Shown here piece after piece: positions 3,187 to 20,334 of a stretch of DNA of 21,113 bases. The position numbers were made by a program, and so were the translations under genes. The number at the start of each line of letters is the position of its first letter. Position 1 is the first letter of the stretch. A model generated the notes under the pieces. It saw only the letters and a list, made by a program, of their open reading frames with translations. It was not told where the DNA came from and ran no database searches. The stretch is from a virus, in IMG/VR virus record IMGVR_UViG_3300011416_000043, positions 1 through 21,113 of that record; one strand, written 5' to 3'.

Positions 3187-3189
3187 CGC

Positions 3190-4191
3190 TCAGCTCTCGT
3201 CCTTCACGCCGTACTGGCGCGCCTCGAAGCCCGGCTTGGTCCACCCGCTGCCGGTCGCAGGGTCCGCCTCGAGCACGTCGTGGTAGCCGGCATGGGTGAC
3301 CGTGAGCGCCTGGTTGGCCTGGTCGTGGTTGGCGACGCCGACCTCGCGCACGTAGTTCTTGATCGCGTGCGGGCCGGTCGTGTCGAAGCGGCCGACCGAC
3401 ATGAGCTGCACGGCATCAATCGACGCGATGTCCGGGGCCAGCGAGCCCACGCCGAAGCACACCCGGTTGCCTGGCGTGGCGTCGGACAGGTAGTCCGTGT
3501 CGTCATTCGGGCCGACTTCATCGACCACGCCGAACTTCGTGCCGCCCGTGCTCTGCGTCCACTGCTGGTGGTCGCCGTCGCTCTGCGGGAAGTGGTCGCG
3601 CACGATCCGATCGCCTTTGAACTGGTCCTCGAGGTTGCCGACGATCGAGTCGGCGGCCTGGACGTACAGGTCATCGACGTCACCGCCTCCAATGAGGAAG
3701 TACGAGAACTCGTTCGGCGCAGCGTTGTGTGTGTCGACGCCGTCCATCGACAGCACGAGATTGCCATTCAGGAAGCCGCGCAGCTGGCCGTTGCCGGCGC
3801 CGTCCCACTTGGCGTAGAAGGCGACGTGATACCAGATGTTCGCCTGCAGGGCAGCACCGAGGTAGGTCTGGATGGTGGTGCTGCTGGCGTCCTTCATGAA
3901 GACGAAGCCGGACGCGTTGCGCAGCATGCGGCAGTGCTGAGAGGTGCCACCGAACTCGAACAGGATCGGCTCTCCTGCAATGGTGCCCCAGCGAACGGCG
4001 CGCGCCGCACCCATGTACGTGTACGGTCCGCCCGGGATCGTCTTGAAGGCCGAGGTCCCGACCGTGGCGTACTGCCCGACGCCGAAGCGCCCGGGCGTGC
4101 CGACGGTGAAGTCTGCCGTCGTGTACCAGGTCGCCTCGTGCGTGGAGTCCGTCGAGTCGAAGCCGTCGCACCACACAACCGGCATGGGCAT
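3190..4191 (-). CDS. Concanavalin/LamG-like virion protein of the tail tip
   Basis: This is a 333-residue protein with no signal peptide. It starts at ATG 4191, overlapping the preceding stop by one base; a second Met at residue 3 is an alternative start. Residues ~5-178 have the pattern of a laminin-G/concanavalin jelly roll: WYHVAFYAKWD at 120-130, a FLNG turn at 140-143, and SYFLIGGGDVDDLYV at 163-177, the usual closing strand where an Asp pair precedes the last strand. Residues ~180-333 form a second beta-rich part of a kind often seen in phage structural proteins. The family often binds carbohydrate. Its place between DUF2460 and the hub gene suggests a tail-tip or receptor-contact protein. 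No catalytic motif is visible, so I do not call it an enzyme. The fold is read from sequence pattern only. Confidence 0.72.
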   Translation of the reverse strand: MPMPVVWCDGFDSTDSTHEATWYTTADFTVGTPGRFGVGQYATVGTSAFKTIPGGPYTYMGAARAVRWGTIAGEPILFEFGGTSQHCRMLRNASGFVFMKDASSTTIQTYLGAALQANIWYHVAFYAKWDGAGNGQLRGFLNGNLVLSMDGVDTHNAAPNEFSYFLIGGGDVDDLYVQAADSIVGNLEDQFKGDRIVRDHFPQSDGDHQQWTQSTGGTKFGVVDEVGPNDDTDYLSDATPGNRVCFGVGSLAPDIASIDAVQLMSVGRFDTTGPHAIKNYVREVGVANHDQANQALTVTHAGYHDVLEADPATGSGWTKPGFEARQYGVKDES

Positions 4192-7992: not shown

Positions 7993-9168
7993 TTAGACGT
8001 CCCACTTCGCGATCTGCATCTGGTACCCCCACGTGTTGTGCTTCTTGCTCATGAAGTGCAGCTTCTGGAACACGTCGTCGTCGGTGCGCTCGCCCTGGCG
8101 CGTGCCCGCGGTGAAGTTCCCCGCCGGCCAGTGGATCACGTAGGCGTTGCCGTCGATGTCCACCACGCGGAAGGCCAGGCCGACATCGGCGAAGCTGAGG
8201 TGCTTGGCCAGGTTCGTGTTGTTGGCGTAGTAGGCCTCGAGGTCGACCTCGCAGGTCATGCGCCCATAGCCGAACGACACCGGGCCCAGCGAGCCCAGCT
8301 CGAGGCGCTGGCGCACGGCGTTGGAAAGCTGCCAGCTCAGCTTGCTCATGCCGAAGGTCGAGCCGTCGAGCATCACGGCCTTGATGTGAGAGACGCCGTT
8401 GATGATCCGCTTGTCCGTCGACGCCACCGGCGTGCCGGCCTGCGTCGAGGTGTTGAAGATCTCCTGCGCGCCCATCCAGTTGAAGCCCAGGTCCACCAGG
8501 CCGTCGGCCGCGACGGCGAAGTTCATCCCCGCGATGGTCTGGTCGCGCCACAGCACGAAGTTGCTCGACAGGTCGCCGTACTTGATCTCGTGGCTGTAGA
8601 GCCGCTCGGTCACGCCGTTGGTGATGTACGGGCCCCGCTCGACCTCGCCCGAGGCGATCGCGGCCTCGTCGACCAGGGTCACGTGGTCGACCGTCGCGTC
8701 GTCGCCCGCGATCGCGGTGATGCGGCACCAGATGGTCGCCGGGTTGGTGGCGAAGCCCTTGACGCGGATCCAGCGGCCCAGGCCGTGGTTGGCCCACACG
8801 ATCTTGCTGGCGCCAGCGGTGCGCAGGATGTTGCCCGCGGCGATCGCCTGCAGGGTCTTGCCCGCGGCGAGCGTGTCGGTCTGCACCGCCTGCCAGGTGT
8901 CGGCCTGGTCGGCCTGTAGCGCGGCCGCCAGCCACTCGTCGTACGCGCCGTAGCTGAAGCGCGCGCGCACCGGGCCCTCGGTGTGCCGCGCGGTCTGCGC
9001 GACGTCCGTCACCATGCGCCCGCTCTCGATCTCGTCGGAGGGCGTCGCGCCCGTGACCGTGGCCAGGCTCTCGCCGGCGAAGCGGTAGGTCTGGTAGTTG
9101 CCGGTCGCCTGCGTCCCGAAGGCGGACTGCTTCTTGGAATACAGCGTCAGCCGATTGGTGTCGGACAT
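7993..9168 (-). CDS. Major tail tube protein
   Basis: This is a 391-residue beta-rich protein, ATG at 9168 with a strong purine-rich ribosome site (AGGGGAAGAAG). The N-terminal part carries SDEIESGRMVTD, the strand-and-loop motif typical of the phage_tail_tube family of siphophages, then GPVRARFSYGAYDEWLAAAL. Later parts are repeated beta segments with aromatic residues. It is longer than many tube proteins, so an extra Ig-like or decoration domain is possible. It is expected to polymerise as hexamer rings around the tape measure. It is preceded by the terminator gene and followed by the chaperone pair, as in most siphophages. It is one of only two genes here with the stem-loop plus AGGGGAAGAA leader, consistent with high expression. 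Confidence 0.85.
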   Translation of the reverse strand: MSDTNRLTLYSKKQSAFGTQATGNYQTYRFAGESLATVTGATPSDEIESGRMVTDVAQTARHTEGPVRARFSYGAYDEWLAAALQADQADTWQAVQTDTLAAGKTLQAIAAGNILRTAGASKIVWANHGLGRWIRVKGFATNPATIWCRITAIAGDDATVDHVTLVDEAAIASGEVERGPYITNGVTERLYSHEIKYGDLSSNFVLWRDQTIAGMNFAVAADGLVDLGFNWMGAQEIFNTSTQAGTPVASTDKRIINGVSHIKAVMLDGSTFGMSKLSWQLSNAVRQRLELGSLGPVSFGYGRMTCEVDLEAYYANNTNLAKHLSFADVGLAFRVVDIDGNAYVIHWPAGNFTAGTRQGERTDDDVFQKLHFMSKKHNTWGYQMQIAKWDV

Positions 9169-9204
9169 TGGTCTTCTTCCCCTGCTGCGCGGGCATCACC
9201 CCGC
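9169..9204 (-). promoter_or_regulatory. Leader of the tail-tube gene: stem-loop plus strong Shine-Dalgarno
   Basis: On the minus strand, GCGGG and CCCGC (9204-9200 and 9193-9189) can pair around a six-base loop GTGATG. Twenty bases separate the stem from the ATG, including AGGGGAAGAAG (9183-9173). The first base of the stem is the last base of the upstream TAG stop. The major capsid gene has the same arrangement with a different stem sequence but a loop that also contains TGAT. Confidence 0.55.
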
Positions 9205-9590
9205 TAGGCTTGGTCCTCAGTGTAGAACGGGCACTCGACGTTTAGTTGCCACCATTTCCCCGCGCGGCCGATCGTGCGCACCGTCGGCGAGCGCCAGGTC
9301 ACCCCGGCCGCCGAGACGAGCCGGAAGGCCGCGCTGATCGTGTCGGCCAGCACGAGGCCGGCCGACACACCCATCGCCATCGGCGTGAAGATCGACGCCA
9401 CGGCGCGGCCGTCGGTGCGGTAGGTGCCGAACTCTGGCTGGCGCACGCCGGCCGGCTGCAGCGTCCAGCGCACCCAGGGCGCGACGTCGGGCGGCGTCAG
9501 GGCGTGGTTGTCGTACTGCACCGCCACCGAGGGCAGCGTGGTGCTCATCCGGGTGCGCACGGCGGCGGCCATCTCGGTCCAGCTCGTCAT
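9204..9590 (-). CDS. Tail terminator/tail completion protein
   Basis: This is a 128-residue protein starting at ATG 9590, which overlaps the stop of the preceding gene (ATGA). The pattern is that of minor tail/terminator proteins (lambda U and DUF4128-like): an N-terminal helix MAAAVRTRMSTTLPSVAVQYDN, WVRWTLQPAG, an R-x-x-G-x-AVASIFTP strand, LADTISAAFR, and a final strand WWQLNVECPFYTED. The family caps the tail tube and joins it to the head. It lies directly before the tube gene, which is the expected place. The C-terminal domain of the neighbouring upstream protein follows the same motif order, so this locus holds two copies of the domain. Confidence 0.78.
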   Translation of the reverse strand: MTSWTEMAAAVRTRMSTTLPSVAVQYDNHALTPPDVAPWVRWTLQPAGVRQPEFGTYRTDGRAVASIFTPMAMGVSAGLVLADTISAAFRLVSAAGVTWRSPTVRTIGRAGKWWQLNVECPFYTEDQA

Positions 9591-10945
9591 GCGACCGGCT
9601 CCGCGCACTGCGCGTAGAAGGGCACGACGACCTCGAGCACCCAGCGGTCGTCCACGAGCCCGCGGCGGATCGGGTAGGGCGGCGGGCTGTAGATCACGCC
9701 GTCGGCGGCCTGGCCGCGGAAGGCGTCGTTGATGATGTCGGCCAGCTCCCAGGCCTCGCCGTCGCCGACCCCGAAGGGCAGGTAGATCGCCGCCGTGGCC
9801 TGGCCCAGCAGCCGCCGACTCTGCTCGGCGCCGCCGAAGTCCATCTGGAACGAGCGGTCGAGCTCGAGCGAGAAGCGGACCCAGGCCGAGCTGTCCGGCA
9901 TGGCCTCGCCCTCGTTGTCGTGCAGCGTGGGGACGCTGTGCACGCCCTCCACGAGCGTCGCGTAGCGGCTCCTGACGGCGGCCAGGATCGTCTCGACGCA
10001 GCCGCCGACTGCGGCCTGCAAGTCGGCCAGCACGCCGCGCGGGAGCAGCTGCAGCAGCGCCCGGCCGGCCAGGGCGCCGGCGCCGGTGGGCGTGGCGCGG
10101 CCGCTGGCGCCCACCAGGCCGCGGCCGGCCAGCGCCCCGCCCCCCGCCGGTGGCCCGCCGCGGCCGGCCAGGCCGAGCATCGCCCGGCCCGCCAGCTCGC
10201 CCGTCGCGCCGGCCGCGGCCCGCCCGGCCAGGCTGAGCAGGGCCCGGCCCTGGATCGGCGCGGCACCCGTGAGCTGGCCGCGCGCCGCGAGCGGCACCAG
10301 CGCGCGCCCGCGCAGCGACCCGGCACCGGCCGGCGCGCCCGCGCGACCCGCCAGCGACACCAGGCTGCGCCCCACCAGGCCGCCCGCGCCGGCCAGGACG
10401 CCCCGCCCCATCAGGGACACGAGCGCCCGGCCGATCAGCGTCCCCAGCCACAGCAGCGGCATGTCGATCCCGGTGTCCGCGGCCCCGACCTCGAACACCA
10501 GCGTGCGGCCCGTGCCCGTCGTCGTGCGCCCCTGGATGCGGTAGCGGAGGCGCTCGGTGACGGCGCCCGCGGGCGTGCCCCACGTGATCCCCACGAAGTC
10601 GTTGAAGGTGAGGACCGTCCCGCTCACCGCGAGCTGCTCAGGCGAGAGCGTCTGCTGCTCGACGTTCCCGCCGGCGGCGTCCTCGCGCACGATGTTCACG
10701 GCGACCTGCACGTTGGCGAAGCCGGTCACGATCTTGACCTTGGGCACCGCCGTGCCGTCCTGCCAGTCGGCGTTGTTCGGCACGCCGACGGGCGAGTGAA
10801 ACTGCGCCGCGCGCGTCGAGCTGCCCGGGATCACGAGCGACAGGTTGCTCGGCGTCTCGCCCGCCAGGTTGAGCTCCTTCGACAGCAACACGTTGCCCGA
10901 GGGCACGATGTCGGAGTCGACGGCGGTCGTGTACCACTGCGGCAT
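9587..10945 (-). CDS. Fusion virion protein: beta-rich head, GR-repeat middle, tail-terminator-like C-terminal domain
   Basis: This is a 452-residue protein; ATG 10945 overlaps the previous stop by one base (TGATG). Residues 1-~160 are beta-rich and resemble no family I can name. Residues ~169-308 hold seven imperfect repeats of 20-21 residues (x-L-x-GRAL-x-x-LAGR-x4-GAG). Residues ~318-452 have the terminator-domain pattern: VRSRYATLVEGVHSVPTLHDN, WVRFSLEL, a QATAAIYLPFGVG strand, LADIINDAFR, and DRWVLEVVVPFY. This C-terminal domain parallels the separate protein encoded next. An independent internal start for the C-terminal domain cannot be excluded, but I see no strong site. It is likely a neck or tail-head joining component; the role of the repeats is unknown. 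Confidence 0.72.
   Translation of the reverse strand: MPQWYTTAVDSDIVPSGNVLLSKELNLAGETPSNLSLVIPGSSTRAAQFHSPVGVPNNADWQDGTAVPKVKIVTGFANVQVAVNIVREDAAGGNVEQQTLSPEQLAVSGTVLTFNDFVGITWGTPAGAVTERLRYRIQGRTTTGTGRTLVFEVGAADTGIDMPLLWLGTLIGRALVSLMGRGVLAGAGGLVGRSLVSLAGRAGAPAGAGSLRGRALVPLAARGQLTGAAPIQGRALLSLAGRAAAGATGELAGRAMLGLAGRGGPPAGGGALAGRGLVGASGRATPTGAGALAGRALLQLLPRGVLADLQAAVGGCVETILAAVRSRYATLVEGVHSVPTLHDNEGEAMPDSSAWVRFSLELDRSFQMDFGGAEQSRRLLGQATAAIYLPFGVGDGEAWELADIINDAFRGQAADGVIYSPPPYPIRRGLVDDRWVLEVVVPFYAQCAEPVA
10022..10441 (-). repeat. Seven tandem ~60-bp coding repeats (20-21 aa, GR-AL-LAGR type)
   Basis: GR pairs open the repeats at residues 172, 192, 213, 233, 253, 274 and 294 of the fusion protein, a spacing of 20 or 21. 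Units include VGRSLVSLAGRAGAPAGAG, LAGRAMLGLAGRGGPPAGGG and LAGRGLVGASGRATPTGAG. Each unit has a second GR about 8 residues after the first. At DNA level the units share a GGCCGGCCA-like core but are not identical, so the array is old or under selection for protein sequence. Actinophage minor tail proteins often have comparable low-complexity strands, which makes a structural linker plausible. Confidence 0.8.
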
Positions 10946-11643
10946 CAGTCGAAGATCAGGTCGAGCACGCCCGCGGCGAAGGACGGGGTGATGTTCACGT
11001 CCACGGCCAGGTGGGTCATCTTGATGCAGTACCCGGCGCCGGCGGCGGTGATGTCGAGCGTGCCGCCGCCCAGCGTGGTCGAGATCGTGATGTCGTTGCC
11101 CGAGCTCGTCTTGACGAAGTACCGCGTGCCCTCGGTGATCCCGGTCGGCAGCGCCGAGCCGCCAGCCATCGCGAGGAAGCAGATCTCGTCGTTCACCGCG
11201 AAGGGGTTGCCCGGCACGGTGAGCGTGTCCGAGGTCGCCGCGACGAACACGAAGTAGTCGGCGCCCGACGGGATCAGCGGGCCGAAGGCGAAGAGCTCGC
11301 CGGCGCCGGTGCCTGAGTCGCGGCCCAGCGTCCACCAGAACTCGGTCTCGGGCGCGCCGGTGCAGACCGGGAACGTGATCGCGCCCACGTTGTCGCCGAT
11401 GTTGTTGGTCATCGCCCAGCCGCCGGTCGAGCGCGCCACGGCGACGCGCGCGTAGCCGGTGTAGGCCGCCTGGCTGGTCGCCTGCGTGCCGCCCTCGCCG
11501 GGAAACGCCGTGGCCAGGCCGCAGTACCAGCTGCCCGCGACGGCGCTGCCGACCAGGCCCGTCGCGTCGCCGACGTTGGCCCAGGTCACGTTCTGCAGGA
11601 CCAGCTTGCCCAGGTTGGTCTCGGCGGAGTTCGACATCGACAT
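10945..11643 (-). CDS. Beta-rich minor virion protein (tail-fibre or decoration-like)
   Basis: This is a 232-residue protein; ATG 11643 lies 3 nt after the preceding stop, with a second in-frame ATG two codons later. The N-terminal half has WYCGLATAFPGEGGTQATSQAAYTGYARV split over ~39-67, a pattern (PGE-x-GT/S-x2-E/Q-x-Y-x-GYAR) common in small phage virion proteins annotated as tail-fibre or Gp80-like. The middle has an ATSDTLTVPGNPFAVNDE segment and a TEGTRYFVKTSSGNDITIS strand, which resemble fibre-tip or Ig-like modules. The C-terminus (MTHLAVDVNITPSFAAGVLDLIFD) is also beta-rich. No enzyme motif is seen. Its place next to the terminator and gp10-like genes suggests a virion surface or neck protein; the specific role is unknown. 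Confidence 0.68.
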   Translation of the reverse strand: MSMSNSAETNLGKLVLQNVTWANVGDATGLVGSAVAGSWYCGLATAFPGEGGTQATSQAAYTGYARVAVARSTGGWAMTNNIGDNVGAITFPVCTGAPETEFWWTLGRDSGTGAGELFAFGPLIPSGADYFVFVAATSDTLTVPGNPFAVNDEICFLAMAGGSALPTGITEGTRYFVKTSSGNDITISTTLGGGTLDITAAGAGYCIKMTHLAVDVNITPSFAAGVLDLIFD

Positions 11644-11646
11644 GGC

Positions 11647-12180
11647 TCAGTCCCTCTCGAAGTAATCCTGGAGTGCGAGCACGGTCACGCCGACCATCCC
11701 CTGGGGCGCCTGCTTGCTGAAGCCGCCCGCGCTGCGGATCTCGTAGTCGGCTTCCTGGTCGGGCGGGAGCAGCCCCTTCTTGGCGAGCGAGCGGCGCCGG
11801 CTGCGGCGCAGCTTGTTGCGCACGCGCGTGCCGCGCTTGACCGGGCTCGGGTAGCCGCCGTCCTCGATGACGGGCGCGTAGGGCGTCGGGTTGCTCAGGA
11901 ACGCGTTGGCGAAGGGAGTCAGCTGCGCCTTGAGTGTGGCCTTGCACTCGGCCGCCGTCGAGTCGCCAGCCAGGTCGCTGCCCTGGCGCACGGTCTCGAT
12001 GGGCGCGCCGACCGAGCCCTGCCAGTTGAAGCGCAGCAGGCCGTCGAGCACGGGCGTGAGCTCCATCACGCCGTCGGTGGCGTCGCCCGCGACCTTGAGC
12101 TGGAACTCCAGGCAGCGCTCCGGCAGCTGCTCCTCGAAGAACTTGTCGACCTCGCGATCGAACGCGTCGAAGTTGCTCAC
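11647..12180 (-). CDS. HK97 gp10-like tail completion/neck protein
   Basis: This is a 177-residue protein starting at GTG 12180, which overlaps the stop of the sulfatase gene (GTGA). The pattern is that of the HK97-gp10-like family: an N-terminal helix (FDAFDREVDKFFEEQLPER), an ELTPVLDGLLRFNWQ strand equivalent to the TPVDTGRLRxNW motif, NPTPYAPVIEDGG for the conserved NxxPYAxxxExG motif, and SKQAPQGMVGVTV at the C-terminal end for the APxGMVxVTV motif. A basic insert (VRNKLRRSRRRSLAKKG, ~119-135) is unusual. Family members act at the head-tail joint or tail completion. Its position before the terminator genes agrees with this. Confidence 0.8.
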   Translation of the reverse strand: MSNFDAFDREVDKFFEEQLPERCLEFQLKVAGDATDGVMELTPVLDGLLRFNWQGSVGAPIETVRQGSDLAGDSTAAECKATLKAQLTPFANAFLSNPTPYAPVIEDGGYPSPVKRGTRVRNKLRRSRRRSLAKKGLLPPDQEADYEIRSAGGFSKQAPQGMVGVTVLALQDYFERD

Positions 12181-13478
12181 GGGCCCGCCGCGCCGGCGTT
12201 GAGCACCGCGAGCAGCGTCGCGATCGCGTCCGTCTGCTCCTGCGTGCTGCCGGGCCACAGGTTGCTCAGCTCGGCCTGGTCGGCCACCAGGTCGAACAGC
12301 TGCAGCACGACCGAGGCGCCCGTGGTCTTGCGCACGAGCTTCCAGCGCGCCTCGATGGCGGCCTCCTGGATCCAGTCCTTGGGCAGAAAGCCGTTGGGCT
12401 GGGCGTGGCGGCAGTAGGCCGAGATCCGCGCGGCCGGCGCGGCCGGGTTGCCCAGCGCGGCCAGGAAGCTGATGCCGTCGGTGCCGGCCACGGCCGGCGC
12501 ACCGAACAGCTCGAGCAGCGTGGTGTGCAGATCGACCGCGTGCACCAGGTGGTCGCAGGTGCGGCCGGGCTGCTCGACGCCCGCGCCCCACACGATGAGC
12601 GGTACGTGCACACCGCCCTCGTAGGGCGTGGCCTTGTGCTGGTGCGCGGCCGTGGGCGGCTCGATGGCCGCCGCCGGCGTCCCGTTGTCGCCCAGCACGA
12701 TCCACAGCGTCTCGGCGGCCGCCTCGGGGTGCTGGGCGGCGAAGTAGGCCATGAGCTGGCCGAGGTAGGTGTCGACCGCCTGCAGCGCGTACTGCTGCTT
12801 CTTGGGCTGGGTCTGCAGCCCGCCGACCGGTGTGTAGCTGCCCGCGGGCGGCAGCAGGTCCCAGGGCGGGTGCGGCGCGTTGAAGGACAGGCACAGGAAC
12901 GACGGCCGGCTGATCGAGGCGGCCAGCGCCTGGCTCGCGTCGTAGCAGTTGTCGACCGTGCAGAAGACCGTCTGCGTCGCCTCGGTCCAGCCGGCGCCGT
13001 CGGCGTACTGCTTCTTCCAGCTGTAGGGCCCCTCACCCTGCGCGGAGAGGATGTTGCTCAGGTGCCCGCGCCAGTTGCTGTAGCCCTTGGCGATCGGGTC
13101 TCGGTGGTAGTCGGGCGCCGCGATGTGCGTGAGGTGCCACTTCCCCACCAGGTCGCAGTGCACGAGCTGCTCGCTCAGCAGCCGCGGCAGCCAGGGCAGC
13201 TCGTCGGCCGGCAGGAAGTCGCCGTTGGGGTTGGTGGCGGGCTCGTAGGTGGGCACGCCCGTGTCGATGCCGGTGCGGCTGCCGTAGAGCCCGGTGAGGA
13301 GCGCGCAGCGCGTGGGCGCGCAGCTGGGGTTCACGTAGGCGCGGCTGAAGCGGATGCCGCCGCTGGCCAGGCCGTCGAGCGTCGGCGTCGGGCCAGCCGT
13401 CGGGTGGCCGTAGCAGCCCACCTTGTCGACCCCGACGTCGTCGAGGACCACGAGCACGACGTGGCGCGGGCAGCTCAT
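12177..13478 (-). CDS. Cysteine-type sulfatase (arylsulfatase family) embedded in the head-tail joining genes
   Basis: This is a 433-residue protein, ATG 13478, coupled to its upstream neighbour by ATGA and to its downstream neighbour by GTGA. All hallmarks of formylglycine-dependent sulfatases are present. D13-D14 near the N-terminus are likely calcium ligands. The signature C53-A-P-T-R57 leads into LLTG, with Cys53 the residue oxidised to formylglycine. K113-W-H115 lies in VGKWHL, and H203 in NAPHPPW. D264-N265 in LGDNGTP are further metal ligands, and K282 precedes PYEGGVHVPLIVWG. Such enzymes hydrolyse sulfate esters of glycans or aryl compounds; phosphonate ester hydrolases share the fold and are an alternative. 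There is no signal peptide, unlike most bacterial sulfatases. The enzyme may therefore work in the cytoplasm or ride in the virion, for example at the tail. Activity would need a host maturase (FGE or anSME). Substrate unknown. Confidence 0.9.
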   Translation of the reverse strand: MSCPRHVVLVVLDDVGVDKVGCYGHPTAGPTPTLDGLASGGIRFSRAYVNPSCAPTRCALLTGLYGSRTGIDTGVPTYEPATNPNGDFLPADELPWLPRLLSEQLVHCDLVGKWHLTHIAAPDYHRDPIAKGYSNWRGHLSNILSAQGEGPYSWKKQYADGAGWTEATQTVFCTVDNCYDASQALAASISRPSFLCLSFNAPHPPWDLLPPAGSYTPVGGLQTQPKKQQYALQAVDTYLGQLMAYFAAQHPEAAAETLWIVLGDNGTPAAAIEPPTAAHQHKATPYEGGVHVPLIVWGAGVEQPGRTCDHLVHAVDLHTTLLELFGAPAVAGTDGISFLAALGNPAAPAARISAYCRHAQPNGFLPKDWIQEAAIEARWKLVRKTTGASVVLQLFDLVADQAELSNLWPGSTQEQTDAIATLLAVLNAGAAGP

Positions 13479-13843
13479 CCGCCGCGCCTCAGGTGCAGGC
13501 CCCAGGCGCAGATCTGCTCACCGCTGTGGAACTCGGTCACGGCCACGACGCCCCACACCTGGCCGCTGATCGTCAGCGTCTGGTTCACCGCCGGCGTGAA
13601 GGCCAGGCCTGAGCCCGCCACGAGCACGGCGGTGTCGCCCTGCTGGATCAGGTCCTCGTCCATCAGCTTGCGGTCGACGGCCGGCGGCGAGACCTTCACC
13701 GTGCCCAGCGAGGTGCCAGGCGTCGCGGCGCCCGTGGCGGGCGAGTAGGCGGTCGGCGCGCTCGTGAACGTCGCGTCGCGCCCGTAGGTCTGGATGACGT
13801 CCAGCACCTCCGGCAGCAGCTCGAGGTCGAGTTCGGTGGGCAT
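13475..13843 (-). CDS. Head closure / head-tail joining protein
   Basis: This is a 122-residue protein, ATG 13843, three bases after the stop of the connector gene, with its own stop overlapping the sulfatase start. It has an N-terminal helix (ELDLELLPEVLDVIQTYGRDATF) followed by a small beta barrel: TVKVSPPAVDRKLMDEDLIQQGD, then TAVLVAGSGLAFTP, TLTISGQVWGVVAV and EQICAWGLHLR. This helix-plus-barrel plan and length are usual for head closure proteins of siphophages (the SPP1 gp16 or lambda FII functional class). Its order, connector then closure then gp10-like, matches that class, apart from the inserted sulfatase. Specific family membership could not be decided by eye. Confidence 0.7.
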   Translation of the reverse strand: MPTELDLELLPEVLDVIQTYGRDATFTSAPTAYSPATGAATPGTSLGTVKVSPPAVDRKLMDEDLIQQGDTAVLVAGSGLAFTPAVNQTLTISGQVWGVVAVTEFHSGEQICAWGLHLRRGG

Positions 13844-13846
13844 CGC

Positions 13847-14362
13847 TCAGGCTCGGATCAGCGCGTTGGAGTCGAGCACCAGGTCGGCGAGCAGCAGGTC
13901 GGCGATCCGGTAGTACTTGGTCGTGCTCTGGCCCGAGCCCGCCCACGTCTTGCTGACGCTGATCGGGCCCACCTCCACCGACTTCGAGATCAGCGCGCCC
14001 GAGCTGGCCGGCGCGACGTCGGGAAGCAGCGACTCGGTGAGCGCGCGCACCGCCATCTCGGCGCACGCCTCCTTGAGCTTCGTCGGCAGGCTGTCGCTGG
14101 CGATGGGGTAGTGGTTCTCGTCGCACACGCCGGCGCGCGGCCAGTCGAGCGCCTGCGTCGAGAGCTTCTTGTCACCCTTCCAGAACAGGTGGTAGTACGC
14201 GTCGAGATACTGCGTGGCCGCACGGATCGCGGCCTCCTTCGCTGCATCGGTGCTGGTCCAGGCGGCATTCGCGTGGTCGGCGAAGTAGAGCACCGCGTCC
14301 GCGAGCGACAGGTACGCGTTGGCGTCGCTCAGCCCCGCACCGGTCTCGACCACGTGTGCCAC
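13847..14362 (-). CDS. Head-tail connector (DnaT-like/gp6-like adaptor)
   Basis: This is a 171-residue protein starting at GTG 14362, with GGGAGGG just upstream. The N-terminal half fits the phage protein family annotated as DnaT-like ssDNA-binding (DnaT_2), found at the head-tail connector position: VETGAGLSDANAYLSLADAVLYFADH, then KEAAIRAATQYLDAYYHLFWKG and QALDWPRAGVCDENHYP, where the family has its QALxWPRxGVxD motif, then a helix LKEACAEMAVRALTES. The C-terminal part (SVEVGPISVSKTWAG, YYRIADLLLADLV) also fits connectors in which the last helices contact the portal. The DNA-binding name is historical; the likely role is a dodecameric adaptor below the portal. Confidence 0.82.
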   Translation of the reverse strand: MAHVVETGAGLSDANAYLSLADAVLYFADHANAAWTSTDAAKEAAIRAATQYLDAYYHLFWKGDKKLSTQALDWPRAGVCDENHYPIASDSLPTKLKEACAEMAVRALTESLLPDVAPASSGALISKSVEVGPISVSKTWAGSGQSTTKYYRIADLLLADLVLDSNALIRA

Positions 14363-14390
14363 GGCACCCTCCCAGGATCAGTGCGTGCGA

Positions 14391-14639
14391 TCAGTCCTGC
14401 GCGTTGGTGCCGTCGGCCGTCGTCGCCTCCGGCCCCTTCTTGGCCTGCGGCGGCGTGCGGCCCGTGGGCTTCCAGCCGCGCCCGGCCCACTTGGGCTGGT
14501 CCTCTTCGTTGCACACGACGAGATCGCCCTTCTTCGGGCCCTCCATCTCGAGGGTCTTGCTGATCACCACGCGCTTCACGGGCGGATCGCGGCCCAGCCA
14601 CGGACGGGGATTGGGATCGGGTTGCAGGGCCTTGACCAC
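14391..14639 (-). CDS. Small basic protein between capsid and connector
   Basis: This is an 82-residue, Pro/Lys/Arg-rich protein starting at GTG 14639, with AGGAG about 9 nt upstream on the minus strand (CCAGGAGTCAGCCC before GTG). Visible features are a central strand VKRVVISKTLEME, KKGDLVVCNEED, WAGRGWKPTGR and a polar tail. It has no transmembrane segment and no recognised domain. The good ribosome site and its place in the gap between major capsid and connector support it as real. Small proteins here are often head decoration, capsid-stabilising or connector-adjacent proteins, but I do not recognise this one. Confidence 0.68.
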   Translation of the reverse strand: MVKALQPDPNPRPWLGRDPPVKRVVISKTLEMEGPKKGDLVVCNEEDQPKWAGRGWKPTGRTPPQAKKGPEATTADGTNAQD

Positions 14640-14669
14640 GGGCTGACTCCTGGTGCGCCCGAGAGCGGT

Positions 14670-14705
14670 CCGGCTGCCGAAGGCGGGCGCGCCCCCGGCA
14701 GCCGG
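14670..14705 (-). terminator. Perfect 10-bp stem-loop just after the major capsid gene
   Basis: On the minus strand CCGGCTGCCG (14705-14696) pairs perfectly with CGGCAGCCGG (14679-14670) around a 16-nt loop that itself contains GGGCGCGCCC. It lies 11 nt downstream of the capsid stop. No T-run follows, so it is not a canonical intrinsic terminator. It may instead protect the capsid mRNA 3' end, mark a processing site, or attenuate transcription into the next genes. Confidence 0.5.
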
Positions 14706-14716
14706 TGCTCCATGGA

Positions 14717-15856
14717 TCAGCCGGCGAGGCGGCAGGCCAGCTCGGGCCGGGTCAGCTTCTTGCCGTAGAGGACGTCGTAGTCCCAGACGGTCTGCTTGTA
14801 CTGGCGCATCACCTCGAGCCGCAGGGTGATGTTCGTCAGCGGGTCGGTCAGCGAGCGGATCTCGCTGCCGCCGGTGAAGAACTTCACTGAGTCGGCGATC
14901 GGCCGCGTGGCGAACGCGATCGCCTCGCGGTGGAAGGCCAGGTTCACCCGGTGCGTGGCCTTCAGGGTGATCGCGGCGTTGTCGGCCACGGTCGCCTTGA
15001 GGCCCGGGTAGAACGTGATCAGGGTCGGCGCAGCGCCGCCCACGGACGAGATCACCGTGTACGTCTGGGCGTGGCCAGCGAAGGTGATGATGTCGCCCGC
15101 GAGCACCGTGCCCGCGGCCTCGCCGTCGGTGATCGCCGTGGTCGCACCCACGGCCAGGCCGGCGCCGTTGTTGACCAGCAGCGTGTCCGCCGTGCCCGCC
15201 GTGTGGCTCGGCACGTCGTCGTCGGCGTACCAGTCGAAGCCGAGCTTGCGGCCGATCTCGCCCTCGGTGATGGGCGTGGCGTCGTTGCTCTGGCTCGCAT
15301 CCCGGAAGGGGGCGAGGTTGAGCGCGTTGGCCTCGGCGTCGTGGTCGAGCACGAAGCGGCGGCTGCCCTTGGGGCAGAGCTGCTGGTTCAGCGTCTTGCG
15401 CACGTCGGTGGCCTGCGTGATCGCCGACGCGAACGGCGTGGTGCCCGCCGTTCCGGCGTAGCCGAAGACGCCCTTGTACTCAGTCCAGATGTCGGTGTTC
15501 ATGATCCGGGCGAGTGCGTCGATCGCGGCCTCGGTCTGCATCGGCAGGAAGTGCTTGTCCTTGTCGATGCGGTGCAGGTCGGGATCGGTCAGCACGTAGT
15601 CGGCGTGCTTGTGCTTGTCGAGCGTGATCTGCACCTGCGTCGGCGTGGTGTCGTTCGGCGTGGGCGGCGTGGTCGCCGGGGTCACGTCGAGCGCGGTGTA
15701 GGACACCGGCAGCGGCACGTCGATGGTCGCGCCGGGCAGCTTCGCCTCGTCCCGGTAGTCCAGGTTCACGATCGAAGGCATGATGAGCCGCTTGCGCAGG
15801 AGCTTGAGGCCCCGCGCGAGCTGCTTGTCGATGATTACGGTCAGGTCGTTGGCCAC
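14717..15856 (-). CDS. Major capsid protein (P22-coat-like)
   Basis: This is a 379-residue protein starting at GTG 15856 with a strong AAGGGGAAGAA ribosome site. It resembles P22-coat-type major capsid proteins: an N-terminal helix (LARGLKLLRKRLIMPSIVN), YTALDVTPATTPPTPND, VQITLDKHKHADYVLTDPDLHRID, a long helix EAAIDALARIMNTDIW, and a central insertion (GDIITFAGHAQTYTVIS, LITFYPGL). NLAFHREAIAFATRPI follows, the late hallmark of this family. The C-terminal strands (ITLRLEVMRQYKQTVWDYDVLYG) complete the HK97 fold. It follows the scaffold gene, as expected. It is the most abundant head protein and, with the tail tube, the only gene here preceded by the stem-loop and purine-rich leader. Confidence 0.9.
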   Translation of the reverse strand: MANDLTVIIDKQLARGLKLLRKRLIMPSIVNLDYRDEAKLPGATIDVPLPVSYTALDVTPATTPPTPNDTTPTQVQITLDKHKHADYVLTDPDLHRIDKDKHFLPMQTEAAIDALARIMNTDIWTEYKGVFGYAGTAGTTPFASAITQATDVRKTLNQQLCPKGSRRFVLDHDAEANALNLAPFRDASQSNDATPITEGEIGRKLGFDWYADDDVPSHTAGTADTLLVNNGAGLAVGATTAITDGEAAGTVLAGDIITFAGHAQTYTVISSVGGAAPTLITFYPGLKATVADNAAITLKATHRVNLAFHREAIAFATRPIADSVKFFTGGSEIRSLTDPLTNITLRLEVMRQYKQTVWDYDVLYGKKLTRPELACRLAG

Positions 15857-15895
15857 GAGTGTTCTTCCCCTTGGGGCGCGGCCGGAATCACCGGC
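15857..15895 (-). promoter_or_regulatory. Leader of the major capsid gene: stem-loop plus strong Shine-Dalgarno
   Basis: On the minus strand GCCGG (15895-15891) pairs with CCGGC (15885-15881) around a TGATT loop. Twenty-four bases later comes the GTG start, preceded by AAGGGGAAGAA (15872-15862). The AGGGGAAGAA string and the TGAT in the loop are shared with the tail-tube leader, while the stem bases differ but still pair, which favours selection for structure. Confidence 0.55.
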
Positions 15896-15934
15896 GCGCG
15901 CGAGTGCGGAGTGTCAGAGCAATCACCAGCGCGC
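15886..15934 (+). repeat. Two near-identical 14-bp direct repeats upstream of the capsid gene
   Basis: AATCACCGGCGCGC at 15886-15899 and AATCACCAGCGCGC at 15921-15934 match at 13 of 14 bases, with starts 35 bp apart. The first copy overlaps the capsid leader stem-loop; the second cannot form the same stem. They may be a protein-binding pair or the trace of a duplicated leader. The rest of the 15857-16004 gap shows no good promoter. Confidence 0.45.
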
Positions 15935-16004
15935 AGATCCCCCGCGCGTTGGCATGCCTCTGGATCCCCCGTCGGGCACGCCCACCGTTGCTACGTGACC
16001 GACC

Positions 16005-16751
16005 TCAGTCGGCTCGCGTGACCTCTCCGGACGCGAGCTTGTCGAGGTAGTCCCCGCCCGCGGCGATGTCCGCGTTCGAGACGGTTCGGGCATTGGCGGC
16101 GGATCCCCCGCGACCACTCCCACCAGCACCGCTTCCCGCGGCGCCTGAACCTTCGTAGTGCGCTGAAAACTCCGGGTCGTTCCGGAGGACCTCGCCGATG
16201 TACTCGTCGGGGGTCATGTACGGGTCGGAGGCGCCCTGCCGCTTCGTGACGAGCGGCTTGCCGTCGGCGCCGTAGACACGGAAGAGCCGGGTGCCGTTCT
16301 CGACGACAGGACGCACGGCGTCCTTCACGGCGAGCATCACCGGGCGACGGCCCTTGACCTTGTGCGTGTCGAAGGACTCGTTGGCCAGGCGCGCGAGCGC
16401 GAGCTCGGTGTTCTCCTTGTCGAGCGCGGCCAGGCGCGCCGCGGCCTCCTCGTGCTTGCTCTTCCACACCGCGCCCTCGGCGGCCTTCGCCTTGATGTCG
16501 GTGAGGTCGCCCAGGGCGGCGAGCTTCTGCTGCGACTCCTTGGCCAAGTCGGGCGTCAGCTCACCGTAGGCGCGCAGCCGGCCCTCGGCGATGTCGGCGC
16601 GCTGGCGCTCGGCCTGGAGCGCTCGGTGCTGTTCCTCGGCGCCCTCGTAGTCGAGGTAGTACTTGCCGTCGTGCCCCTTGGTGTAGAACTCGCGGTGCGA
16701 CGCTTCTGCGACCGCGTCCAGCGAGTCGACGACCCGCTTCAACTTCCCCAC
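16005..16751 (-). CDS. Capsid scaffolding protein
   Basis: This is a 248-residue protein. The start is GTG 16751; the frame has no earlier start before a stop, and the ribosome site is weak. The protein is highly charged and helical: residues ~35-125 form a coiled-coil-like stretch (AEEQHRALQAERQRADIAE, LAKESQQKLAALGDL, HEEAAARLAALDKENTELAL). A small mixed region (FRVYGADGKPLVTKR, DPYMTPDEYIGEVLRND) and a Gly/Ser linker (~202-217) follow, with a short C-terminal helix after that. This layout and its position directly before the major capsid gene are typical for scaffolds, whose C-terminal end usually contacts the coat protein and which are removed on maturation. No protease motif is visible, so the scaffold may leave intact, as in P22. 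Confidence 0.82.
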   Translation of the reverse strand: MGKLKRVVDSLDAVAEASHREFYTKGHDGKYYLDYEGAEEQHRALQAERQRADIAEGRLRAYGELTPDLAKESQQKLAALGDLTDIKAKAAEGAVWKSKHEEAAARLAALDKENTELALARLANESFDTHKVKGRRPVMLAVKDAVRPVVENGTRLFRVYGADGKPLVTKRQGASDPYMTPDEYIGEVLRNDPEFSAHYEGSGAAGSGAGGSGRGGSAANARTVSNADIAAGGDYLDKLASGEVTRAD

Positions 16752-16974: not shown

Positions 16975-18090
16975 TCACGCGTCGACCAGCGCCTCGAGCT
17001 GCTGCAGATTGAGCATTCGGCCGCGCCGGTCGGTGAAATCGCCGATCTCGAGGCCCCCCTCGCGCAGCAGCTTGGCGCGCCCCGGGCCCAAGGCCTCCTC
17101 TTGCACCCAGGCCGGCTGGTCCTTGATCCACTCGGCGTAGCTCAGCGTGCCCTTGACCGGCCCGCCCATGGCCGCCCGCTGGCCGGGCCCGACCTCGCGC
17201 AGGTCGAAGCCGAGCTGCTTCCAGGTCTTCATCTTCGGCCGCGTGACGCACCGGCAGTGCGGATGGAACGGCGGCCGCGGCCCCTCCTCGAGGGGGAACT
17301 CCCGGCCGTCGAGCTCGCCGCAGGTCGGACAGGTCGTGGTGTCGAGCGTGGCCATGATCACGACGGCCTCGATCACGTCCGAGTTGGCCGCGAAGGTCGA
17401 CTCCCGCGCGTGGTTGGACACGTGCCCCACGGCGGTCCGCACGACTCGCTCGGCGTCGCGCCGGGTCGTGTTGAGCACCCCATCGGTGAACCGGTTCTCG
17501 CGCGTCCCGCGCAGCCTGGCGACGATCTGTGAGACCGTCTCGCCGCTGCCCATGCCGAGGTTGATCTGCTGGGTGACCCGGCGCTGGGTGTCGAGCGCCA
17601 GGTCGCTGAACCAGTCCTTGAGCAGCTTCCCGGCCATCGGCCGGGCCGTCACGATCGAGCGCAGCATGGCCGGGCTCGGCGCGGCGAACTCGATCTGCAG
17701 CGGCACGGTCTTGGTCAGCAGCGTCCGCTGCCACTGGGCCTCGGACGCGGCCAGCGGCGAGAGGTCCTTCTGCAGCCGCTCGCTGGCCTGGGTGACCCCG
17801 CCGGCGAGCAGGCCGCGCAGCTCGACCGCCAGGTCTCGCAGGCGCTTGGTGGAGTGCACGCCCGCGTCGAAGCCCCGCTCCTCGACGCGCCGCAGTCGCG
17901 CCTCGATCCGCGCGAGCACGTCGGGCAGCAGCTGCTCGTTCAGGAAGCCCAGCACCCGGCCGACCTCGTGCGTCTTGAAGCGCTCGAGGTAGAGCGCGTG
18001 GCGGATCCCGCGCGCCATGAGCACCTGGTCGGCCGGCTGGCCGCGCAGGGCCGCCAGCAGCCGCTCGTCGATCTTCGGGACCTTGCCCAT
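16975..18090 (-). CDS. Phage Mu protein F-like minor head protein
   Basis: This is a 371-residue protein; ATG 18090 overlaps the stop of the zinc-protein gene by one base. Residues ~1-215 are helical, with HEVGRVLGFLNEQLLPDVLARIEARL and a middle part QINLGMGSGETVSQIVARLRG. Residues ~216-285 are the Mu-F domain: VVRTAVGHVSNHARESTF, then LDTTTCPTCGELDGREFPL and PPFHPHCRCVTRP. The conserved C254-x2-C257 and H276-x-H278-C279-x-C281 are all present and probably bind zinc. The remaining ~85 residues continue with a helical tail (YAEWIKDQPAWVQEEALG, LLREGG). Such proteins are head-inside or portal-associated minor capsid proteins needed for head assembly and sometimes injected. The location after the portal fits; two small genes intervene. 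Confidence 0.9.
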   Translation of the reverse strand: MGKVPKIDERLLAALRGQPADQVLMARGIRHALYLERFKTHEVGRVLGFLNEQLLPDVLARIEARLRRVEERGFDAGVHSTKRLRDLAVELRGLLAGGVTQASERLQKDLSPLAASEAQWQRTLLTKTVPLQIEFAAPSPAMLRSIVTARPMAGKLLKDWFSDLALDTQRRVTQQINLGMGSGETVSQIVARLRGTRENRFTDGVLNTTRRDAERVVRTAVGHVSNHARESTFAANSDVIEAVVIMATLDTTTCPTCGELDGREFPLEEGPRPPFHPHCRCVTRPKMKTWKQLGFDLREVGPGQRAAMGGPVKGTLSYAEWIKDQPAWVQEEALGPGRAKLLREGGLEIGDFTDRRGRMLNLQQLEALVDA

Positions 18091-18290
18091 CAGGGCTTGG
18101 CCGGCCGCCGGCACAGCTGCCCGCCGACGAAGTGCCGGGCGCTGCACTCGCCGCACAGGATGCGCTCGCACAGCGGGCAGGCCACGGCCTGGCGGCCGTC
18201 CTGGCGCTGCACGGTCAGCCCCTTCATCTGGCAGACGTCGCAGGTCCACTCCAGCGGGAAGGGCGGCAGCTTGGGCGCGTGGTGCTTCAT
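18090..18290 (-). CDS. Small zinc-binding protein
   Basis: This is a 66-residue protein; ATG 18290 overlaps the sigma-like gene's stop (ATGA), and its own stop overlaps the MuF start. Three CxxC pairs are visible: C17-x2-C20, C38-x2-C41 and C46-x2-C49, followed by H53 and C60. Spacing suggests one or two zinc sites, perhaps a compact cross-brace or treble-clef fold. Phage Mu Com is a small zinc protein, but it controls mom translation and is not homologous by any motif I can see. Possible roles are nucleic-acid binding, or partner of the sigma-like protein encoded just upstream. No specific function can be assigned. Confidence 0.78.
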   Translation of the reverse strand: MKHHAPKLPPFPLEWTCDVCQMKGLTVQRQDGRQAVACPLCERILCGECSARHFVGGQLCRRPAKP

Positions 18291-18796
18291 GCGGCCCACT
18301 CGGCCATGAACTTCCGGCGCGCCCGGAACAGGCGCACGTCGTACGCCTTGCGCTTGAGCCCCAGCTCGGCCGCGATCGCCTGCCTGGACTCGCCAGCCAG
18401 GAAGGCCCGGCGCAGCAGCGCTGCGTCCTGCGCGCGCATGCGCCCCAGCACGCGCTCGATGGCCAGCCGCCGTGCCCGCTCGTGACCTTCGGTCGTGTCG
18501 GCCCTGTCCTCGCAGAGCAGCACCTCCACCGTGTCGGTGCCATCGAGCTCGCGCCGCTGCGGCTGAGTCCGCCAGCGCACGCGCCGCGCACGCCACAGGT
18601 CGAGCGCAGCCCGGCGCGCGAACGTCGAGACCCAGTTCCGCACATTCACACAGTCGGCCGGGAAGCGCCCGACCGCGCGCAGCGCGCGCACAATGGCGTC
18701 GCTCGCGGCGTCCTCGGCGTCCGCCTCCTGGTCCAGGATCTTGCGCGCGATCCCGACGCACATCGGGTGGCAGGCGGCGATGTCGTCGGCGATCAC
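18287..18796 (-). CDS. ECF-like RNA polymerase sigma factor
   Basis: This is a 169-residue protein starting at GTG 18796, overlapping the portal stop (GTGA). Residues ~4-76 fit sigma region 2: an N-terminal helix, ARKILDQEADAEDAASDAIVRALRA (region 2.1-2.2, AED at 27-29), and NWVSTFARRAALDLWRARRVRWR (54-76), matching the WLxTIARNxxxDxxR core that melts and contacts the -10 element. Residues ~107-165 fit region 4: a helix RLAIERVLGRMRAQDAALL, then a helix-turn-helix ESRQAIAAELGLKRKAYDVRLFRARRKF that would read the -35 element. The order and length match ECF (group 4) sigma factors. It is most likely a late-gene or host-redirecting transcription factor. A terminase small subunit is a poorer fit because of the intact region-2 pattern and its place after the portal. 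Confidence 0.8.
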   Translation of the reverse strand: MIADDIAACHPMCVGIARKILDQEADAEDAASDAIVRALRAVGRFPADCVNVRNWVSTFARRAALDLWRARRVRWRTQPQRRELDGTDTVEVLLCEDRADTTEGHERARRLAIERVLGRMRAQDAALLRRAFLAGESRQAIAAELGLKRKAYDVRLFRARRKFMAEWAA

Positions 18797-20334
18797 GCGG
18801 CCTTCTTGGGCGGCCGCTCCTCGTCGTCGTCCCCTGGCGGGGCCTCCCCCTCCTCGCCAGGCGGCATCCCGAAGCTGGCCAGGTCCGGCCCCTCGTCCTC
18901 GATCGCCTTGGCCTCCTTGGCGACGTCGAGGTCCTCGGGCAGGATCAGCCCCTTCAGCAGCGACAGGAAGGTGGTGCGCGAGAGCTCGCCCGCCTGGCGG
19001 ATCTCCTTGAGCAGGCGCACCTGGTCGAGCGTGAGTGAGGGCGGCGCCCAGTCGTCGAAGACGTCGACGCCGAACTTGTCGGGCAGCTTCGTGCGCGCGA
19101 ACAGCGCGGCGAACCCGAAGCCCTGCAGGAAGCCTGCCTCGATGGCGCGCACGTAGGCCTTGAGGTCGCTGGTCGTGTTCTTGTCCGAGATCTCCTGGCC
19201 CGTCGCGGTCTCGTCGCCGGTGCGTTCCATCAGCGGCTGCAGCGCACGCACGTTCATCTCGGCCTGCAGGTCGAGGATGTCCTGGCGGCCGGCGGAGACC
19301 GCGTTGCCCTGGATCTCGACCCACCAGGCCTTGCTGTTCGGGTCCTTGAGCTTCCACACCGACTGCACGCCGAGCAGCGAGGGCTTGCGGCTCTCCTCGT
19401 CGCTCACGCCGGCCATGGCCATCTTGGGCACGCGCGCGTAGCGCAGGATGTTCGTCTGGTCGCTGCGGCTGGCCCAGTGCGCCCGCTCGAGCTCGGCCAG
19501 GTCGGCGAGCGGCGGCTCGGCCTCCATGAAGCCCGTGCGGTTGAAGTAGACCGTGACGAGCGGGATGCCAGGGAAGGTGTGCGGCCCGCTCTCGACGAGT
19601 GTGTAGCCGTCGGCGTCCTTGTTCTTGCGGTACAGCTGCCAGGTGCCGGCGCTGGCCTCCACGCCCTCGCTGGCCTCCACGGGCGTGTTCCACACGCGCA
19701 CGTGCTCGACCTCGGTCTCCTCGCCGTCGACCTCGACGACGTGGCACTCGCGGATCCGGATCTGTGTCAGCTCGAGGCGGTTGCCCTTGCCGCGCTGCGC
19801 CTTCCAGCCGATGAGGTCCTTGGCCGAGACGTGCACGAAGTAGGGGTGCACGCGCCCCTCGCGCTCGTCCTTGGTGGACAGCTCGCGCACGTCGCCCGGC
19901 ATGTCGACGAGGAAGTGCACCAGACCGCGCTGCAGCGCGTCGGCCATGAGCCGGCGGCCGAACTGCGTCAGGCTGGAATCGCTGTAGTCGGCGTCGCTCT
20001 CGATGGGTGCGAGCAGCTCGGGCAGCGTCCCCAGGTCGCGGCCGATGCGGATCGTGACCGGCTTGCCGAAGGGCCGGGCCGAGAGCCGGCGCACCGTCGA
20101 GCGCAGGAAGCCGTGGCACGTGCTGCGCTTGAGGCGCGTGTCGTAGGCGGGCTTCTCCTCGCCCGGCTCCTTCGGCAGGTAGACCTCGCCGGCCTTCTGC
20201 ATCCCCTCGGTGCCACCCATGAGCGCGTCGATCAGCTTGGTGCGCTCGGCCATCCGCCGGTAGACGGCGGACTCCTTGCCCACCCACGCGTTGGTCTCGG
20301 TGGGTGTGGGCGGCGGGCGCTTGACCTTGGCCAT
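18793..20334 (-). CDS. Portal protein (DUF4055-like)
   Basis: This is a 513-residue protein starting at ATG 20334. It fits the DUF4055 group of portals: DALMGGTEGMQKAGEVYLP near 36-54, YDTRLKRSTCHGFLRSTVRRLSARPFGKPV (about 64-93), and a beta-rich wing (GLVHFLVDMPGDV, HPYFVHVSAKDLIGWKAQ). A clip/stem region with FNRTGFMEAEPPLADLAELERAHWASRSDQTNILRYA follows, then the long C-terminal helical crown (EMNVRALQPLMERTG, LKAYVRAIEAGFLQGFGFA). The end is acidic then basic (GDDDEERPPKKAA). As the portal it forms the dodecameric ring through which DNA enters and leaves. The large terminase normally precedes it; the upstream 198 nt and small membrane genes do not include one. The start codon has only a weak ribosome site, and a hairpin lies just upstream. 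Confidence 0.9.
   Translation of the reverse strand: MAKVKRPPPTPTETNAWVGKESAVYRRMAERTKLIDALMGGTEGMQKAGEVYLPKEPGEEKPAYDTRLKRSTCHGFLRSTVRRLSARPFGKPVTIRIGRDLGTLPELLAPIESDADYSDSSLTQFGRRLMADALQRGLVHFLVDMPGDVRELSTKDEREGRVHPYFVHVSAKDLIGWKAQRGKGNRLELTQIRIRECHVVEVDGEETEVEHVRVWNTPVEASEGVEASAGTWQLYRKNKDADGYTLVESGPHTFPGIPLVTVYFNRTGFMEAEPPLADLAELERAHWASRSDQTNILRYARVPKMAMAGVSDEESRKPSLLGVQSVWKLKDPNSKAWWVEIQGNAVSAGRQDILDLQAEMNVRALQPLMERTGDETATGQEISDKNTTSDLKAYVRAIEAGFLQGFGFAALFARTKLPDKFGVDVFDDWAPPSLTLDQVRLLKEIRQAGELSRTTFLSLLKGLILPEDLDVAKEAKAIEDEGPDLASFGMPPGEEGEAPPGDDDEERPPKKAA

Follow-up and report, generated by a model that had tools for sequence, protein, structure and literature searches.

Why should a phage carry a gene for a catalytically complete sulfatase between the genes that close its head and complete its tail, and where would such an enzyme act? 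The question is raised by a linear virus record of 21,113 bp, hereafter called the window (the whole stretch of DNA that was analysed), whose real genes lie on the minus strand. Their order is portal, ECF-type sigma factor, Mu-F-type head morphogenesis protein, scaffold, P22-type major capsid, a small protein, Ad1 and Hc1, followed by the sulfatase, Ne1, a gp80-like fibre protein, the tail terminator, the tail tube and the tape measure (assigned by position), and finally a DUF2460 protein, a LamG-like protein and the baseplate hub. The main features are:

18793..20334, minus strand: portal protein (phrog_145, 2.7e-93)
16975..18135 (start approximate), minus strand: head morphogenesis protein, Mu F type (phrog_241, 9.4e-121)
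16005..16751, minus strand: head scaffolding protein (phrog_206, 4.2e-17)
14717..15856, minus strand: major capsid protein, P22 coat type (phrog_283, 3e-76)
13847..14362, minus strand: head-tail adaptor Ad1 (DnaT_2; phrog_477, 4.1e-44; Pfam, 4.4e-39)
13475..13843, minus strand: head closure protein Hc1 (phrog_161, 6.5e-10)
13475..13478, minus strand: ATGA overlap of Hc1 stop and sulfatase start (read from the sequence; same in the sister phage L002)
12177..13478, minus strand: type I sulfatase gene, 433 aa (Pfam Sulfatase, 1.4e-36; SGSH_C, 1e-06; AF2 pLDDT 87.7; Z 43 to an S1_25 sulfatase)
13308..13322, minus strand: formylglycine (FGly) motif C53-A-P-T-R57, then LLTG (read from the sequence)
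12177..12180, minus strand: GTGA overlap of sulfatase stop and Ne1 start (read from the sequence; same in L002)
11647..12180, minus strand: tail completion / Neck1 protein Ne1 (phrog_169, 7.8e-18)
10945..11643, minus strand: podophage gp80-like fibre-type protein (Pfam Gp80, 1.1e-06)
9204..9617, minus strand: tail terminator (Pfam Phage_tail_terminator_5, 2e-07)
7993..9168, minus strand: major tail tube protein (tblastn to annotated tail tube proteins, 27%)

Two further genes of the window deserve mention. The RNA polymerase sigma factor encoded within the structural operon (18287-18796, minus strand; Sigma70_r2, 1.1e-12; Sigma70_r4_2, 2e-06) is joined to the portal gene by a GTGA overlap, and a different Sigma70_r2 protein occupies the same site in L002 (640-1176). 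The tail-region protein encoded between the DUF2460 gene and the baseplate hub (3190-4191, minus strand) gave weak LamG (3.5e-4) and polysaccharide-lyase (9e-5) scores, both below the Pfam cut-offs, and is possibly a second glycan-facing protein.

The first-pass annotation had described an intact gene of 433 aa with D13, D14, C53-x-P-x-R57, K113, H115, H203, D264, N265 and K282, and all of these residues were found where it had placed them. It had named no strand; the plus-strand frame at 12177-13478 is meaningless, and the real ORF is on the minus strand. The ATGA and GTGA overlaps reported for the two gene ends were read directly from the sequence, with Hc1 and Ne1 as partners, and place the gene inside the virion morphogenesis module. 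Pfam assigned residues 5-327 to the Sulfatase family and residues 284-415 to SGSH_C, and the top match in a sequence search of the PDB was a kappa-carrageenan sulfatase of family S1_16 (1.8e-25). Across 49 aligned sulfatases the FGly motif keeps its cysteine in 47 sequences and its arginine in all 49, and D13, D14, D264, N265, K113, H115, H203 and K282, which comprise the metal ligands and the catalytic Lys/His/Asn set, are invariant. The labels "sulfatase" and "late-operon gene" are firm. The position of the gene at the neck is no evidence that the protein is located there; the operon suggests late expression.

An AlphaFold model calculated from the 49 aligned rows (pLDDT 87.7, pTM 0.92), which supersedes an earlier model from 11 rows (pLDDT 68), had as its top structural match the S1_25 sulfatase module 6hr5 (Z 43.3, 2.5 A over 364 residues), followed by a Pedobacter sulfatase (7stv, Z 42.5), an iota-carrageenan sulfatase (6bia, Z 41.3) and human 4-sulfatase (1fsu, Z 41.2). 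Although the S1_25 module ranks first, many S1 subfamilies tie, and because the Z values lie so close together the substrate cannot be read from this ranking. The structural alignments cover residues 2-433 and thus leave no room for any other domain; the model contains neither an extra or anchoring domain nor the beta-helix fold of tailspikes. The combination of a C/S-x-P-x-R motif followed by LTG, the residue set and an alkaline-phosphatase-type fold with the sulfatase C-terminal subdomain identifies the protein as a type I sulfatase (PF00884). As to the question whether structure prediction would place it with phosphonate hydrolases instead, motif and best structural matches both indicate a glycan sulfatase. 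The protein has the sulfatase-type K-x-H and D-N pairs when compared with the phosphoric/sulfuric ester hydrolase PehA, whose model it matched with 43.8 bits against an NCBIfam cut-off of 900, and no phosphonate monoester hydrolase occurred among the 50 best structural matches, an absence that alone excludes nothing.

These comparisons also bear on a rather improbable reading, in which the protein would be an intracellular auxiliary metabolic enzyme acting on small sulfate esters within the infected cell, either to release their sulfate or to render them harmless. Known sulfatases of the cytosol include AtsA of P. aeruginosa and choline sulfatase. AtsA (1hdh) is itself among the structural matches (Z 37.9), and the missing signal peptide would suit a cytoplasmic role. 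Sulfatase also appears among the auxiliary metabolic genes that a review lists for viruses of deep groundwater (PMC10029852). However, the best structural matches are glycan sulfatases, and the scores stayed far under the NCBIfam cut-offs of both the arylsulfatase equivalog PRK13759 (90.1 bits vs 481) and the choline sulfatase equivalog (50.8 bits vs 433). The late structural position of the gene and the mostly export-type nature of its nearest cellular subfamily also argue against an intracellular function.

That subfamily was found in a pattern-limited scan of 84,980 species genomes, in which the best cellular relative by far was the MAG Proteobacteria bacterium TH-Jun18-251 (37%, 2e-57). 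Since both phylum samplings gave the same genomes, this MAG was assigned to the phylum that holds a Myxococcales genome (Myxococcota), in which 42 of 284 genomes contained sulfatase matches at 1e-30 or better. Phylogenetic analysis grouped the phage copies (window/L002, L036 and L044, the latter two described below) with the Myxococcota sulfatases (SH-aLRT 99) and separated this group from planctomycete, verrucomicrobial and other sulfatases; as the Myxococcota sequences were chosen for their similarity to the query and L044 forms a long branch, the exact placement is unsure. A crude rule detected a hydrophobic N-terminus ahead of the catalytic domain in 24 of 29 Myxococcota sulfatases, and a lipobox was recognized by pattern in 17 of the 29 and by eye in several more. 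The earlier statement that bacterial sulfatases are usually exported thus holds for most of the nearest cellular relatives, whereas the window protein, as had also been claimed, opens directly with the catalytic fold: its N-terminus, MSCPRHVVLVVLDDVG, is the first strand, and a signal peptide is absent. The simplest reading of these sequences would be that the phage acquired the catalytic domain without a leader. Within the Myxococcota, L050 encodes three sulfatases of this subfamily in tandem, and L148 and L151 contain subfamily sulfatases within ORFs of over 900 to 2200 aa. Host searches yielded no match to the major capsid protein in 284 Myxococcota genomes (a search with no positive control) and, for the tail tube protein, only distant matches (25-30%) in 399 genomes of the Paucibacter order.

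Whether other phages carry a sulfatase at this site, as the first-pass annotation had asked, can be answered with one example. IMGVR_UViG_3300012172_000008 (L002; 40,754 bp) from IMG/VR contains the gene at the identical junction; its overlaps are of the same kinds, and its identity to the window gene is 93%. As this is a separately assembled contig with the same gene, neighbours and overlap kinds, the gene in the window is neither a chance reading frame nor the product of a chimaera. A terminal direct repeat of 123 bp indicates that the L002 genome is complete, and the tyrosine integrase and RecT that it also encodes make it probably a temperate phage. In five more distant relatives (L004, L006, L007/L029, L015 and L020) a neck-sized gene comes directly after an Hc1-sized gene, and in several of these relatives the two overlap; Hc1 was confirmed by sequence in L004, L006, L007/L029 and L015, and Ne1 in L006, L007 and L015. 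No sulfatase occurs anywhere in the 41-kb relative G020. Since Hc1 and Ne1 also adjoin in cultured Guernseyvirinae and in Serratia phage Eta, the sulfatase is an insertion in one clade, which agrees with the original description of a gene inserted between head-closure and tail-completion genes. Absence from all relatives combined with signs of recent insertion, which had been named as counter-evidence, was not observed: L002 has the gene, and the GC content (0.724), third-position GC content (0.977) and codon use of the sulfatase match those of the neighbouring genes and thus give no sign of a recent arrival.

The restricted distribution could be taken to indicate a passenger gene that was inserted between two genes by chance and is tolerated without selection, as merely two close phages possess it while it is missing at the junction in the five other relatives and anywhere in G020. 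This is very unlikely given the uninterrupted frame, which overlaps cleanly with both neighbouring genes, the operon-like codon use and GC content, the recurrence of sulfatases in late modules of other phages, and the purifying selection on the catalytic part. Between the window and L002, the sulfatase gene had an overall dN/dS of 0.49, with 0.32 in residues 1-300 and 0.66 in residues 301-433 (rough values from one sequence pair, as are 0.14 for Ad1, 0.15 for the tail tube, 0.21 for Hc1 and 0.70 for the scaffold), and the two phages show zero differences at catalytic residues. By this comparison, the catalytic part (residues 1-300) is under purifying selection and is the most constrained part of the protein. 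The same values speak to the similarly remote idea of a repurposed fold, according to which a former sulfatase would now serve as neck or decoration protein with no need for catalysis. Its place among connector genes and the more variable C-terminal third would be compatible with such a change, but the catalytic part is the most constrained, and the catalytic residues are complete in the window, L002, L036 and L044. Divergence between the window and L002 is mosaic across 7993-16751, with a dS of 0.09 in the sulfatase, gp80-like and tail tube genes, 0.42 in the capsid gene and 0.31 in Ne1.

A scan of 2.9 million viral contigs for the FGly motif detected 12 contigs, all sulfatase-encoding and one of them the sister phage L002; this count is a lower bound, as the scan is blind to the arginine codons AGA and AGG. 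The scan thereby revealed sulfatases in approximately five further phage lineages, several of them within structural modules. In L036 (IMGVR_UViG_3300022214_000114, 2312-3535) the gene, whose product has a short hydrophobic N-terminus, directly follows the portal gene by a GTGA overlap, and the portal gene itself follows the terminase gene. L044 (IMGVR_UViG_3300029319_007336, 807-4010) encodes a protein of 1067 aa whose catalytically complete sulfatase domain is preceded by a phage-type domain (phrog_5417) with a paralogue in the next gene (31%, 1e-22); upstream of the fusion gene lie genes for a baseplate wedge protein (phrog_219, 2e-36) and a Tail_P2_I protein. A relationship of this N-terminal domain to the gp80-like protein of the window was not detectable. 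The L042 sulfatase, with a signal-like N-terminus, is encoded between tail-fibre assembly and minor structural genes, and the L040 sulfatase, with a lipoprotein-like N-terminus, near the end of a late operon. The L041 sulfatase has no signal, lacks the second catalytic His and is encoded next to a peptidase gene; a protein with a Zeta-toxin/AAA domain is encoded near the structural region of the same contig (7633-9510). All catalytic residues are kept in the window, L002 and the distant copies in L036 and L044. Matches of the window, L036 and L044 proteins to phrog_19870, a PHROGs family with no assigned function, imply that unannotated members exist in phage or prophage data. Among the remaining contigs, L043 is cut by the contig end, and four were rejected as phage examples: L045 is probably chimaeric, as it combines pieces of sulfatase with terminase-like and tail-sheath sequence, and the genes surrounding the sulfatase in L037, L046 and L038 are apparently bacterial.

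The first-pass annotation knew of no well-described phage structural sulfatase. For deposited phage genomes and structures this stands: none of the 50,697 deposited phage records searched by tblastn with P0002, L036, L041 and L044 as queries yielded a genuine phage sulfatase (hits partly examined), and giant-virus proteins were the only matches of this fold that the viral structure library returned. It does not extend to uncultivated phages, in which approximately five other lineages carry sulfatases. Four of the six tblastn hits in deposited phages were, on examination, bacterial polysaccharide-utilisation contigs filed as "Bacteriophage sp.", and a hit of another query to Campylobacter phage A11a (L048, MG065691) lies in enterobacterium-like DNA of an UNVERIFIED record. 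The deposited "phage" records MT836438, MT835586, MT835799 and MT836891 (L031-L034) read as bacterial DNA with Bacteroidota-like polysaccharide-utilisation genes. A genome scan with a single sequence as query gave no match. From the late modules above it is tentatively proposed that several unrelated tailed phages, each on its own, took up type I sulfatases as late enzymes of the virion module (as stand-alone proteins at neck or portal, and in one lineage as part of a tail-module protein), which would constitute a new, desulfating class of phage enzymes modifying surface glycans that depends on the host formylglycine-generating enzyme (FGE) and could make FGE a host-range factor.

For the window, the favoured reading, with a probability of roughly 0.4, is that of a virion-borne enzyme which desulfates surface glycans at adsorption. 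A type I sulfatase of glycan-sulfatase fold would be translated late in infection alongside the head-tail connector proteins, and host FGE would convert Cys53 into formylglycine while the chain is still cytoplasmic. Its presumed substrate would be sulfate esters carried by the host capsule, by slime or by polysaccharide in the surroundings, which the enzyme, having no export signal, would have to reach from outside. It would most likely be attached to the virion and used like deacetylase tailspikes, with the decoration taken off and the chain left uncut, and may help the virus to pass sulfated slime or coats.

This virion-borne role is favoured by the family, residues and fold of the protein, by the conservation of its place and overlaps in the second complete genome (L002), by purifying selection on residues 1-300 with no catalytic substitution, by the contrast between mostly export-type Myxococcota relatives, many with a lipobox, and a phage copy reduced to the catalytic domain, by the sulfatases in virion modules of L036, L042, L040 and L044, and by the precedent of virion LPS deacetylases (PMC5380687). 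On the other hand, the model has no anchoring domain, neck genes are an odd site for an adsorption enzyme, and the whole-gene dN/dS is looser than that of Ad1, Hc1 or the tail tube. Export-type N-termini on the L040 and L042 sulfatases imply that not every phage sulfatase acts from the virion. The complete L002 genome contains no FGE-family gene, so that sulfatase activity would depend on the host.

Alternatively, the enzyme could be soluble and absent from the particle: it would build up in the cytoplasm alongside the structural proteins, be released by lysis and desulfate slime or debris, helping progeny to spread or to escape trapping. Such an enzyme would need neither the anchor domain that the model lacks nor an export signal, the late operon position would suit it, and the export-type sulfatases in the late operons of L040 and L042 indicate that an enzyme acting outside the cell need not be virion-bound. 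This alternative is nevertheless somewhat unlikely, as it explains the position among connector genes no better than chance insertion does, and for at least one lineage, L044, the fusion encoded next to baseplate genes speaks for attachment to the virion. Removal of sulfate by a phage would point to sulfated glycans as phage barrier or receptor and would tie infection to the ability of the host to make formylglycine, and the gene provides a small soluble enzyme for trials on sulfated polysaccharides. Relatives that naturally have no sulfatase gene at this junction make the idea directly testable.

Among known systems, the type I glycan sulfatases (SulfAtlas S1; for example 6hr5, 7stv, the carrageenan sulfatases 6prm and 6bia, and 1fsu) share the fold over residues 2-433 (Z 41-43), the FGly motif and the metal and catalytic residues with the window protein, which differs in its low identity to them (approximately 22-26%), its location in a phage morphogenesis operon and its missing signal peptide. 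The Myxococcota sulfatases (L050, L142-L165) are the best cellular matches (up to 207 bits, 40% identity) and have the signature DDVGVDKV in common with it. Many of their genomes encode several paralogues, and unlike the phage copies most of these proteins carry a leader, often with a lipobox, and a linker ahead of the catalytic domain. Giant-virus sulfatase-domain proteins (Yasminevirus, Satyrvirus, Tetraselmis virus 1) have the sulfatase fold as well, but are non-phage proteins with 12-16% identity and an unrelated genome context. A search of the open-licence literature, which is weak evidence of absence, found no papers on a phage- or virus-encoded sulfatase. In phage papers "sulfatase" mostly refers to FGE-sulfatase domains (PMC12724379, PMC11318856, PMC10232697), and the FGE-sulfatase domain proteins of phage diversity-generating retroelements (PMC12724379) share only this word with the window gene: they contain a formylglycine-generating enzyme domain and, unlike the window protein, are not sulfatases. 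The virion enzymes so far known to attack surface sugars comprise hydrolases, lyases and deacetylases, and the review consulted makes no mention of sulfate (PMC5380687). Compared with tailspike depolymerases and LPS deacetylases, the window enzyme has a sulfatase fold and is encoded with the neck genes instead of within a tailspike. The proposed role is nonetheless alike, namely to alter host surface polysaccharide at adsorption, and the LPS deacetylases of virions likewise strip decorations and leave the chain uncut (PMC5380687).
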